The notes beneath the pieces were generated by a model, which ran no database searches, was not told the DNA's origin, and was given only the letters and a program-made list of their open reading frames with translations. 33,459 nt of DNA from Elusimicrobiota bacterium. Its GTDB lineage: Bacteria > Elusimicrobiota > Elusimicrobia > UBA1565 > UBA9628. Both the position numbers and the translations under genes were made by a program. Location of the stretch: NCBI GenBank assembly GCA_016207605.1, contig JACQPJ010000057.1, positions 1-33,459 on the forward strand, given 5' to 3'. Positions 14,622-20,040 of this stretch are shown here, in pieces (position 1 is the stretch's first letter; the number at the start of each line of letters is the position of its first letter).

Positions 14622-14630
14622 TGCTATAAT
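14622..14630 (+). promoter_or_regulatory. Extended -10 promoter TGCTATAAT for the rimP-nusA-infB leader
   Basis: TGC 14622-14624 + TATAAT 14625-14630, about 97 nt before rimP ATG. Confidence 0.65.
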
Positions 14631-14656
14631 GACATCGCTCCGCTCTTAGGGGAGAG

Positions 14657-14680
14657 ACTTTTTCCTTCGTAAGGGAAAGT
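14657..14680 (+). promoter_or_regulatory. Candidate antiterminator hairpin in rimP leader
   Basis: ACTTTTTCCTT-CGT-AAGGGAAAGT: 10-bp stem with one bulged U and a G-U pair; its 3' arm AAAGT is shared with the terminator 5' arm. Confidence 0.55.
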
Positions 14681-14706
14681 GGCTGCCGCTTGGAGCCACT
14701 TTTTTT
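14676..14706 (+). terminator. Intrinsic terminator (attenuator) upstream of rimP
   Basis: AAAGTGGCT (14676-14684) / AGCCACTTT (14694-14702), perfect 9-bp stem; T-run at 14700-14706. Confidence 0.8.
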
Positions 14707-14727
14707 GTTGATAAAACAAGGATAAAA

Positions 14728-15192
14728 ATGGACGCGCGCGAGATCGAGACGCTGGTGACGCCCCTCGTCGAGCAGGAGGGCGGGGAGCTCGTCGATCTCC
14801 AATGGAGGCGCGAGGGTGCGCGCTGGGTCCTGCGGCTGTTTTTGGACAAGCCGGGCGGAATCACGCTGGACGACTGTGAGTACTTCTCGGATCGGGTGGG
14901 GGCGCTGCTGGACGAGGCGGGCAAGATCGAGCAGTCCTACGTGCTGGAGATCTCCTCCCCGGGATTGGATCGGATCATCAAGAAAGACAAGGATTTCGAG
15001 CGCTTCGCGGGCAAGGCCGTTAAGTTGCGTCTCAAGCTCGCCGACGACGGGCAAAGGCGTTTCGCGGGGACGCTGGAAGGACTGAGCGGCGGGACGGTGC
15101 TGGTCCGGATTGGAGCGGATTTAAAAGAATTTGAGCGTGGAAATGTCGACGAGGTGCGCCTTGACGACGCGGCGGCTTTGGAACAGGAGTAA
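14728..15192 (+). CDS. rimP: Ribosome maturation factor RimP
   Basis: VLRLFLDKPGGITLDDCEYFSDRVGALLDE...YVLEISSPGLDRIIKKDKDFERFAGK. Confidence 0.95.
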   Translation: MDAREIETLVTPLVEQEGGELVDLQWRREGARWVLRLFLDKPGGITLDDCEYFSDRVGALLDEAGKIEQSYVLEISSPGLDRIIKKDKDFERFAGKAVKLRLKLADDGQRRFAGTLEGLSGGTVLVRIGADLKEFERGNVDEVRLDDAAALEQE

Positions 15193-15195
15193 GCC

Positions 15196-16488
15196 ATGGT
15201 CAAGTCCGAATTGATGGCGGCGCTGGAGCAGATCGCCCGGGAGAAGAACATCCCGGTCGAGGAGATCCTGTCGATGATCGAGGGCGCGGTGGTGTCCTCC
15301 CTGCGCAAGCACGTGGGGGCGGACGCCGACATCCGCGCGACCATCGACCGGGAGACGGGGGCCTTCTCGGCGGTCGTCGCCAAGAAAGTGGCCGACCCGG
15401 TGACGATCCCGGACCTGGAGATGACCCTGGACGAGGCGCGGCGCCACAAGAAAGGGGCTCAAATCGGCGACGAGATCGTCTACCCCGTTCCCGCGGCGGA
15501 TTTCGCGCGCATCGCGGCCCAGACCGCCAAGCAGCTGCTCAGCCAGCGGGTGCGCGAGGTGGAGCGCGACCAGCTTTACGAGGAGTTCAAGCCCAAGGAA
15601 GGGGAGATCGTCACGGGCTCCGTGCACCGCTTTTTGGACCGCAACATCATCGTGGACCTGGGCAAGACCGAGGCCGTCCTGCCCCTGCGCGAGCAGATCC
15701 GGCGCGAGCGCTACGGCATCGGCTCCAACGTGCGCGCCGCGATCCTGCGCGTGGACAAGGCCCAGCGCGGCCCGGCCGTCGTCCTCTCGCGCGCCGCCGA
15801 CGTGTTCCTCCAGCGCCTCATGGAGCAGGAGATCCCCGAGGTGGCCGACAAGACCGTCGAGATCGTCAAGATCGTGCGCGACCCGGGCTTCCGCGCCAAG
15901 GTGGTGGTCAAGTCCAACGACCCCAAGGTGGATCCCATCGGCGCCTGCGTGGGCCTGCGTGGCTCGCGCATCCGCTCCATCATGAACGAAGTGGCCGGGG
16001 AGCGCATCGACTTGATCCCCTACGCCGCGGAGCCCGAGGCCGCGCTGGCCAACTCCCTGGCCCCGGCCAAGGTCGCCTCCGTGCGCTTGACGGACCCGGT
16101 CAACCGCGCGGCGGAGATCCTGGTCGCGGAGGAGCAGCTGGCCCTGGCGATCGGCAAGGACGGGCAGAACGTGCGCATGGCCCAAAAGCTGACGGGCTGG
16201 ACCCTCGAGGTCAAGTCCCAGGCGCAGCAGCGGGCCGAGCGCCAGGCCGTCCGCGGCCCCGCGGCCGCGGCCCTCTCCGCGCTGGAGGGCGTGGGCCCCA
16301 AGACGCTGGAGACCTTGGCCGAGGCGGGCGTAACGGACATCGCGCGCCTGGCCGCCTCCCGCGTCGAGGATTTGACCGCGCTGGCGGGCATCGGCGAGAA
16401 GACCGCGGCCAAGATCATCGCCTCGGCCCGCGCCGCCTTGGAGTCCGGCCCGGCCGCTTCCCCGTCGTCGGAAGGCCCCGCGGCCTAA
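15196..16488 (+). CDS. nusA: Transcription termination/antitermination protein NusA
   Basis: S1 and KH regions: DPVGACVGLRGSRI-type motif (DPIGACVGLRGSRIRSIMNEVAGERIDLI), AIGKDGQNVRMAQKLTGW; C-terminal HhH. Confidence 0.97.
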   Translation: MVKSELMAALEQIAREKNIPVEEILSMIEGAVVSSLRKHVGADADIRATIDRETGAFSAVVAKKVADPVTIPDLEMTLDEARRHKKGAQIGDEIVYPVPAADFARIAAQTAKQLLSQRVREVERDQLYEEFKPKEGEIVTGSVHRFLDRNIIVDLGKTEAVLPLREQIRRERYGIGSNVRAAILRVDKAQRGPAVVLSRAADVFLQRLMEQEIPEVADKTVEIVKIVRDPGFRAKVVVKSNDPKVDPIGACVGLRGSRIRSIMNEVAGERIDLIPYAAEPEAALANSLAPAKVASVRLTDPVNRAAEILVAEEQLALAIGKDGQNVRMAQKLTGWTLEVKSQAQQRAERQAVRGPAAAALSALEGVGPKTLETLAEAGVTDIARLAASRVEDLTALAGIGEKTAAKIIASARAALESGPAASPSSEGPAA

Positions 16489-16522: not shown

Positions 16523-18934
16523 ATGGATAAAAAGACCGTCAAGAAGCCGGCGGGCAAAAAAGACGACGCGGCCAAGAAGGACGCCCCCAAGAAAAAGGCC
16601 GCGGCGGACAAGCTGCGCGCCAGGAGGCCGGCCAAGCCGGACGTGGAGGGCGTGGTCAAGACCGCGGCGGCGGTGCGCACCAAGCAGGAGGAGGGCTCCA
16701 TCGCGCCGGAGAGCGCCCGCCTTGTCTCCGCGTTCGATCTTTTCAAGAAGCGCAAGGTCTCCACGTCCGCTCCGACGGTGACGCGCCTGGCGGCCGGCTC
16801 TTCCCTGCCCAAGCCTCCCGCGCCCAAGGCGCCGGAGCCGCCGGCCGCCGCCAAGCCCACCCTCCCCCTCCCGGCGGTCGCGCCTGCGGCCAAGCCTGCC
16901 CCCGCACTCCCGCCAAAGCCGGCCGTCCCGTCCGCTTCCGTCAGGGCCTCCGCGCCCGCGGCGCCCGCGCCCGCCAAGCCGACGTTGCCCGCCGCTCCCG
17001 CTCGGCCCGCGCCGCAGCGTCCCGGCTCAGGTCCGTCGCGCCCCGGGCAGCGCCCCGGACAATTTCATCATCGCCCGGCCGGTCCCAAGCCGCATCCCAA
17101 GGCCAAGGCCGCCCCCGCCCCGGCGCCGCCGGCGGAGGCTCCCGCCGCGAAGTCCGCCCTGAAAAAGATCCAGGTCTCCTCCATGATCACGGTCCGCGAG
17201 CTCGCGGAGAAGATGGAGGTCAAGAACAACGACGTGATCAAGAAGCTCATGAGCCTGGGCATCTTCGCGACGATCAACCAGCGCCTGGAGGCCGACGCGG
17301 CGCAGCTCGTGGCCGCGGACTTCGGCTTCGAGCTCGCGGTCGTGGCGATGTACAAGGAAGAGGAGCTGGCGGTCAAGAAGAGCGAGGCGGAGGATCCCGC
17401 CCGCCTCAAGCCCCGCCCGCCCGTGGTCACCATCATGGGTCACGTGGACCACGGCAAGACCTCACTGCTCGACGCCATCCGTTCGACGCGCGTGGCCGAG
17501 GGCGAGGCCGGCGGCATCACCCAGCACATCGGGGCCTACAAGGTGGCCACGGAGAAGGGCGAGATCGTCTTTCTCGACACCCCCGGCCACGCCGCCTTCA
17601 CCGCGCTGCGCGCGCGCGGCGCCAAGGTCACCGACGTCGTGGTGCTCGTGGTCTCGGCCACCGACGGGGTCATGCCCCAGACCATCGAGGCCATCGATCA
17701 CGCCAAGGCCGCCGGCGTGCCCATCGTCGCGGCGGTCAACAAGATCGACCTGCCCGGGGCCAACCCGCAGAAGATCCGCCAGGAGCTGGCCGGCCACGGC
17801 CTTCAGGCCGAGGAGTGGGGCGGCAAGACCATCTTCGTGGACGTCTCGGCCAAGAAGCGCCTGAACCTGGACAAGCTGCTGGAGAGCCTCCTTCTGCAGG
17901 CCGAGATCCTGGAGCTCAAGGCCAACCCGGACCGCCTGGCCTACGGCGCCATCCTGGAGGCGCGCATGGACCCCAAGCGCGGGGCCGTGGCCACCGTTCT
18001 CGTCCAGGCCGGCACGCTCAAGGTCGGCGACGCCTTCGTCGCGGGCTTGTCCCACGGCAAGGTCAAGGCTCTCGTCGACGATCGCGGGGCCCGCATCGAC
18101 TCGGCCGGGCCCTCGACGCCGGTCGAGGTCCTCGGCCTCATGGGCTCGCCCCAGGCCGGCGACGCCTTCACCGCGGTCGAAAACGAAAAGGCCGCGCGCG
18201 ACATCGCCGAGAAGCGCGGCCTCATCCATCGCGAGCAGACCTTGGCCCACCAGAAGCACATGACGCTGGTGGGCCTGCGTTCCGCGCTCAACGCGGGACA
18301 GTCCAAGGCCAAGGACCTCAACATCCTGCTCAAGGCCGACGTGCAGGGTTCCCTGCAGGCCCTGCGCGACTCCCTGGAGGGCCTGTCCACGAGCGAGTGC
18401 CGCGTGCGCATCATCCACGCCGGCGTCGGCAACGCCAGCGAGTCGGACGTCCTGCTGGCTTCCGCCTCCGACGCGGTCACGCTCCTCTTCCACGCCGATG
18501 CGGAGCCGCGCGCCCAGGAGATCGCGACCCGCGAGGGCGTCGAGCTGCGCCGCTACGAGATCATCTACGAGCTCATCGAAGACGTCAAGGCCGCGCTCGA
18601 GGGCCTGCTCGCGCCCGAGATCGTGGACGTCGTCGTCGGCAAGGGAGAGGTCAAGCAGCTCTTCAAGGTCAAGGCCGGCACGGTCGCGGGCTGCGCGGTG
18701 CGCGACGGCAAGGTCGCGCGCGGCTCCTTGATCCGCGTCGTGCGCGGCGGCCAAGCCGTCCACGAGGGCCGGGTCACGACCCTCAAGCGCTTCAAGGACG
18801 ACGTCAAGGAAGTCGAGAAGGGGATGGACTGCGGCATCGCCATCGAGGGCTTCGACGGCTTCCAGCCGGGAGACCTTCTCGAGTTTTACGTCAAAGAGAC
18901 CCGGGTCCGGCGTCTGAGCCAGTCGCCCCGCTGA
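16523..18934 (+). CDS. infB: Translation initiation factor IF-2
   Basis: K/A/P-rich N-terminus, IF2_N-like region, G1 [26 protein letters not shown]. Confidence 0.98.
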
Positions 18935-18961: not shown

Positions 18962-19312
18962 ATGTTCGACCGCGCCGAACGCCTCAAAGAACTCTACAAG
19001 CGGCTCGTCAACGAGCTCCTGCGGGAGGTCAAGGACCCCGGCCTGGCGGGCTTCCTCACCGTGACCGACCTGGAGCTCTCCGCGGACCGCAAAACGGCGG
19101 TCGTGCACTACTCCATCCTCGGCTCGGATGCGGAGCGCGCGCGCGCGGCCAAGGCCCTGGAGCGCGCCGCGCCCTACCTGCGCGGCCTGCTGCGCAAGCG
19201 CGCCGCCGTTAAGATCGTGCCCCAGCTCGTCTTCTCCTACGACGACACCCCCCGCCAGGCCGCGCGCATCGACGCCCTCCTTCACCGCTTGGAAAAGGAG
19301 CGCGGCGGATGA
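18962..19312 (+). CDS. rbfA: 30S ribosome-binding factor A
   Basis: FDRAERLKELYKRLVNELLREVKDPGLAGFLTVTDLELSADRKTAVVHYS; follows infB. Confidence 0.93.
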   Translation: MFDRAERLKELYKRLVNELLREVKDPGLAGFLTVTDLELSADRKTAVVHYSILGSDAERARAAKALERAAPYLRGLLRKRAAVKIVPQLVFSYDDTPRQAARIDALLHRLEKERGG

Positions 19313-20040
19313 CGCGGGCCCCGGCGGGAATGCTCCTGGTCGAAAAGCCCGCCGGCTGGACCTCCCACGACGTCGTCGCGGTCTTGCGCCGCAGCCTTCC
19401 GCGCGGCGCTAAGGCCGGCCACACCGGCACCCTCGACCCGCTGGCCACGGGCCTTCTCGTCATCCTGGTCGGTCCCTGCACGCGCCTGCAGTCGCGCCTA
19501 CAGGGCTTCGACAAGGTCTATTCCGGCACGATCCGCCTGGGCGAGCGCACGGACACGGGCGACGTCACGGGCAAGGTCCTCGAGCGCCGCGAGGTGCCCG
19601 CTCTGAGCCTGGAGCGCCTGGGCGAGGAACTGCGCGCTTTGGAGGGCGTCTTTGAGGCTCCCGCTCCGGCCTATTCCGCGGTCAAGCACAAGGGCAAGGC
19701 CCTCTACCATTACGCGCGGGCGGGCCTGGAGGTACCGGTCAAGCCCCGCCATGCCATGCTCCGCTCCTGGGAGGCGCTCTCCTGGGCGCCGCCGGAGCTC
19801 TCCCACCGGCTGGCCTGCTCCAGCGGCACCTACGTGCGCTCCCTGGCCGAGGCCCTGGGCGAGCGCCTGGGCTGCGGAGCTACGGTCTCCAGCCTGCGGC
19901 GCGAGGCCGTGGGCCCGTTCCACGCGGCCGACGCGCTGGCGCTGGACGCCCTGCGCGCGATGCCGGCGGAGGAGCTGGACGCGTGTCTGGCGGCCTCTCG
20001 GCCGGCGCTCGACGCCGCGCTGGGCGCCGCAGCCGCGTGA
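19309..20040 (+). CDS. truB: tRNA pseudouridine(55) synthase
   Basis: GMLLVEKPAGWTSHDVVAVLRR...KAGHTGTLDPLATGLLVILVG. Confidence 0.96.
   Translation: MTRAPAGMLLVEKPAGWTSHDVVAVLRRSLPRGAKAGHTGTLDPLATGLLVILVGPCTRLQSRLQGFDKVYSGTIRLGERTDTGDVTGKVLERREVPALSLERLGEELRALEGVFEAPAPAYSAVKHKGKALYHYARAGLEVPVKPRHAMLRSWEALSWAPPELSHRLACSSGTYVRSLAEALGERLGCGATVSSLRREAVGPFHAADALALDALRAMPAEELDACLAASRPALDAALGAAAA

Follow-up and report, generated by a model that had tools for sequence, protein, structure and literature searches.

The rimP-nusA-infB operon of Elusimicrobiota is preceded by a short leader that is probably a compact, phylum-specific version of the rimP-leader attenuator, in which the terminator itself would serve as the sensor, most likely of NusA. 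The leader is ordinary in kind, as a rimP-leader attenuator, and phylum-specific in form. Among predicted transcription attenuators the rimP-leader has been described as the most widespread (Naville and Gautheret 2010, PMC2965389), and the leaders described here extend it to Elusimicrobiota.

The rimP operon and its leader

The leader was analyzed in a window of 33,459 nucleotides (the whole stretch of DNA under study, to which all coordinates refer) from a draft Elusimicrobiota genome of 1.4 Mb that is 75% complete. The nearest relatives of the NusA protein encoded in the window are from Elusimicrobiota, with no more than 82% identity. By Pfam domains, the gene order in the window is proS, a methyltransferase gene, and then rimP-nusA-infB-rbfA-truB, which is the usual rimP-nusA-infB operon. 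In E. coli, metY precedes rimP, whereas no tRNA was found within the Elusimicrobiota window. The features of the leader and operon are as follows.

14622..14630, + strand: extended -10 promoter element TGCTATAAT, from the sequence; no recognisable -35 in the window
14638..14654, + strand: weak hairpin P1, replacing the stronger, genus-specific CGCCTCCC...GGGGGGCG of relatives
14657..14680, + strand: hairpin A of the first-pass annotation, private to the window genome and probably not functional
14676..14706, + strand: rimP-leader intrinsic terminator AAAGTGGCT...AGCCACTTT plus T7, from sequence, folding, conservation and a covariance model
14718..14722, + strand: likely Shine-Dalgarno sequence AAGGA of rimP, read from the sequence and lying outside the terminator
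14728..15192, + strand: rimP, with its ATG at 14728 (Pfam RimP_N and RimP C-terminal domain)
15196..16488, + strand: nusA (Pfam NusA_N, S1, KH, HHH)
16523..18934, + strand: infB (Pfam IF-2, GTP_EFTU)
18962..19312, + strand: rbfA (Pfam RBFA)
19309..20040, + strand: truB (Pfam TruB_N)

The first-pass annotation, which had been made from this DNA alone, had located TGCTATAAT, hairpin A, the terminator arms, the T7 run and the rimP ATG, and all of these positions are as it claimed.

A conserved terminator directly upstream of rimP

The arms of the predicted terminator lie at 14676-14684 and 14694-14702, with the T7 run at 14700-14706, and its core has a folding energy of -14.3 kcal/mol. Relative to dinucleotide shuffles the whole leader has a more stable predicted fold (z -2.7), mainly owing to this terminator. 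A generic terminator scan missed the element because the scan allows loops of up to 8 nt and the loop here has 9 nt.

The promoter-proximal intrinsic terminator that the first-pass annotation had predicted ahead of rimP-nusA-infB is borne out by comparison with relatives. The sample consisted of 119 distinct rimP upstream regions, taken from 97 relatives and 75 named loci and including a few from other phyla, and a G[TC]G[GA]C...G[CT]C[AG]C stem followed by a T-run precedes rimP in 102 of them. The core is GTGGC in 57 of these, GCGAC in 36 (mainly the Elusimicrobiales-type GCGACTTG...CAAGTCGC), GCGGC in 8 and of another type in 1. About 14% of the 119 regions are without the core, and some of these carry other hairpins. 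Among 48 aligned sequences of the GTGGC type, the four G-C core pairs are invariant (48/48), and the outer stem pairs change mostly from A-U to G-U and three times to G-C, with 96% of the cells paired. The loop beside the GTGGC core is also biased (n=57), with G at position 6 in 44 sequences and at position 9 in 45, and mostly A or C at positions 7-8.

The motif is specific for the rimP leader, as judged by searches with the covariance model R1 in which the best first-look candidates were scored. R1 scores 44.3 bits at the window terminator, its only match in that genome. At least 63 of 97 whole relative genomes, many of whose sites had been used in training the model, have exactly one match each, and 60 of these 63 matches are at rimP, as assigned by comparing match positions with the positions from a RimP search (in one genome, G065, some 265 nt separate the match from the RimP domain that follows). 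The three matches away from rimP are weak, with E above 0.004. Since R1 was trained on many of these sites and the scoring took in the best first-look candidates, held-out genomes provide the fair test, and in all five of these (G221, G238, G266, G271 and G290) R1 matches directly upstream of rimP. In a wider sample of 248 genomes, at least 28 match at E <=0.001, the lower rate being due to the stricter cut, the candidate limit and the inclusion of orders with the GCGAC core.

The promoter and its distance from the terminator

The extended -10 element proposed in the first-pass annotation is likewise conserved. All 17 of 17 genus members and 85 of 102 phylum leaders have a TG-extended -10, and because both this element and the terminator are so widely conserved, neither is a matter of chance. 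The best -35 in the window matches at 2/6 positions, whereas 80 of the 102 leaders have one that matches at 4/6 or more, and a sigma-70 scan with an obligatory -35 missed the putative window promoter TGCTATAAT.

The distance from the -10 box to the terminator core was estimated by consensus matching, with starts that are predicted rather than mapped. Measured from the end of the box, it is 36-48 nt in the leaders of the genus. Of the 85 leaders from outside the genus, 84 fall between 7 and 31 nt, and the median there is 18 nt. Assuming that transcription starts about 7 nt past the -10 box, the hairpin in these non-genus leaders would begin at about +1 to +24. Because the two elements are usually so close, an antiterminator or aptamer would have hardly any space, or none at all, outside the genus, and a conserved mechanism therefore cannot depend on an antiterminator. 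The near absence of any leader before the terminator instead points to a sensor that acts on the terminator or on the polymerase, most plausibly NusA. With these minimal natural leaders, which could hardly accommodate an aptamer or antiterminator, NusA sensing by the terminator alone becomes directly testable.

In the rimP upstream regions L153, L138, L160, L145 and L120, the predicted terminator hairpin begins only 4-9 nt after the -10 box, and a terminated RNA would be little beyond the hairpin itself.

Relation to known rimP leaders

Across the rimP-leaders surveyed by Naville and Gautheret, the terminator alone is conserved and most species have no antiterminator (PMC2965389). The Elusimicrobiota leaders share with this general attenuator a short, conserved intrinsic terminator just ahead of rimP-nusA-infB, located between the predicted promoter and the rimP start, with a G-rich 5' arm, a C-rich 3' arm, a T-run, no conserved or otherwise visible antiterminator structure, and near specificity for rimP. 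They differ in that the predicted transcription start outside the genus lies almost on the hairpin, and in the core itself. The published GGGc...gCCC stem motif was not found; its place is taken by the related GTGGC...GCCAC, or by GCGACTTG...CAAGTCGC in Elusimicrobiales, and we call the Elusimicrobiota form a variant because its core is related to the published motif but differs from it. Comparison beyond the phylum covered individual loci from Nitrospirae and Bacteroidales, together with E. coli, and a Nitrospirae rimP leader gives a weak R1 match at the right place, GTGGGCTGA...CGGCCCAC, which by its sequence links the GTGGC form to the published motif.

The rimP leader of Rfam (RF01770), which covers the gammaproteobacterial form only, likewise lies before rimP and has a terminator with a T-run, and its second upstream hairpin has a parallel within the genus, but it differs from the Elusimicrobiota leader in sequence and in the upstream hairpin. 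At its gathering score RF01770 matched the E. coli control but none of 38 genomes of the family, and searches with Rfam at E values up to 10 gave no match at rimP. A literature search found no study of a rimP-leader attenuator in Elusimicrobiota.

The closest mechanistic precedent comes from the nusA operon of B. subtilis, which also has an intrinsic terminator in the leader of an operon encoding NusA and in which, as summarized in a 2025 review (PMC12288461, citing Mondal et al. 2016), NusA autoregulates through that terminator. At about 180 nt (PMC2965389), the leader of B. subtilis is longer than that of the window, which has about 90 nt, and those of the relatives are shorter still; the NusA dependence demonstrated there is, in Elusimicrobiota, what we infer by analogy. 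NusA was also proposed as the ligand of the rimP-leader on the basis of older evidence that it represses the operon, and a precedent for NusA autoregulation in E. coli is cited in the same paper (PMC2965389).

A model for attenuation, and its alternatives

In the best reading of these leaders, RNA polymerase would begin transcription some 7 nt past the extended -10 box and would soon reach the one conserved intrinsic terminator. Some of the transcripts would end at the T-run as short RNAs, of about 70 nt in the window and in most relatives of about 35-60 nt. The remainder would read through into rimP-nusA-infB-rbfA-truB. NusA would most likely increase hairpin formation, pausing and termination, so that plentiful NusA would lower the expression of its own operon, and neither an antiterminator hairpin nor an aptamer would be needed. 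The autoregulation by NusA that the first-pass annotation had suggested is thus likely, given the B. subtilis and E. coli precedents, but the two-hairpin switch through which it was supposed to operate is not supported (see below). The sensor could also be a factor other than NusA, such as NusG or RimP, or the terminator could be a fixed brake only, and sequence conservation alone is no proof of regulated read-through.

A more specific version of this model can be offered as a tentative possibility. The Elusimicrobiota attenuator may consist of a promoter and an intrinsic terminator that starts almost at the first transcribed nucleotide, with the conserved loop beside the core (GUGGC-U-G-M-M-G, where M is A or C) providing a sequence-specific site for NusA, or for another factor, on a polymerase that is barely past the promoter. 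If true, this would be a minimal natural NusA sensor.

The stem and T7 run resemble a strong terminator, and only about 30 nt separate the end of the methyltransferase gene from the promoter, as might be expected if the element were a constitutive brake or insulator that imposes a fixed drop in operon output and blocks read-through from the methyltransferase gene but senses nothing. However, a pure insulator would be expected upstream of the promoter, and the terminator lies between promoter and gene both here and in the aligned relatives. Furthermore, an invariant core with a biased loop, found essentially at rimP only, is not what would be expected of an ordinary terminator, and we regard the constitutive explanation as unlikely.

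Less likely again is that hairpin P1, which is of the CCC...GGG type, forms a tandem element with the terminator. Such a tandem has been proposed for the rimP leader in Gammaproteobacteria, where a CCCg...cGGG hairpin lies ahead of the GGGc...gCCC terminator (PMC2965389), an arrangement seen in E. coli. A strong P1, CGCCTCCC...GGGGGGCG, is indeed predicted between promoter and terminator in 8 of 17 genus leaders (z below -2), and in these eight it is followed by a T-rich stretch. That stretch is nonetheless absent in five genus members, and P1 is weak in the window, where it folds no better than shuffles (z -0.1). In addition, the duplex energies of the leader, P1 included, with the 5' arm of the terminator are no better than those of shuffles (mean z +0.63), and a pairing of the P1 5' arm with that arm was rejected on these grounds.

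The proposed two-hairpin switch

The first-pass annotation had proposed that hairpin A is an antiterminator that competes with the terminator, the two being mutually exclusive by virtue of a shared AAAGT. The overlap is present. In several congeners the same terminator arm can take part in a weak hairpin of a different kind (-7.0 kcal/mol in G013 and -5.5 in G005), and others form nothing there.

Folding upholds the terminator but gives little to hairpin A. Hairpin A can form, at -5.9 kcal/mol and with one bulge or G-U pairs, which leaves it some 8 kcal/mol short of the terminator core. When the leader is folded through the T-run, the key pair of hairpin A has a probability of 0.009, and a structure made to contain the hairpin loses about 3 kcal/mol. 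The two hairpins are not strictly exclusive, because GUGGCU/AGCCAC and a trimmed hairpin A can be present together in one structure, at -25.3 compared with -25.8 kcal/mol. When growing prefixes of the leader are folded, hairpin A appears early and is displaced as the 3' arm of the terminator emerges, which is expected of any weak upstream hairpin.

A lack of conservation in relatives had been named beforehand as one result that would refute the proposal, and this is what is seen for hairpin A but not for the terminator. In the genus alignment the window carries a stretch of about 7 nt more than all 16 congeners, and this stretch supplies the loop of hairpin A together with a large part of its 3' arm. 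In a pattern search of 19 genus genomes, hairpin A was found upstream of rimP in the window genome only and in none of the 18 others; G007 has one unrelated match with three mismatches elsewhere, at a locus with no RimP-encoding open reading frame. Pairing of the window leader with the 5' arm of the terminator is equalled by 21% of shuffled leaders, and across the genus such pairing falls below that of shuffles (mean z +0.70). Most non-genus leaders have no room for hairpin A, and no conserved pairing that excludes the terminator was found in the rimP leaders compared. Because it is absent in congeners and pairs no better than shuffles, hairpin A is best read as a private chance feature, and as a conserved antiterminator it was rejected. 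The two-hairpin switch is the least likely of the explanations considered here, very improbable in our view, and the idea of competing hairpins can be set aside.

The extra bases of the window leader lie at approximately 14668-14674, around an inverted repeat CCTT-CGT-AAGG.

Other hairpins before rimP

Several groups of relatives depart from the GTGGC form. In L059-L100, L128, L141 and L155, which are mostly from Elusimicrobiales, the core is GCGACTTG, a GNAA-type loop and CAAGTCGC, and many of these leaders have a near-consensus -35. The sister genus g6 (L025, L030, L031, L108 and L115) has no GTGGC core, and alternative pairings among CGAGC, GCTCG and CGAGC precede the T-run; these were considered as a switch and rejected, the alternative pairing being no better than shuffles. 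In family f5, short GGTGCC-loop-GGCACC hairpins replace the GTGGC core before rimP in L015, L110 and L140, and L125, also from f5, carries a hairpin that differs again.
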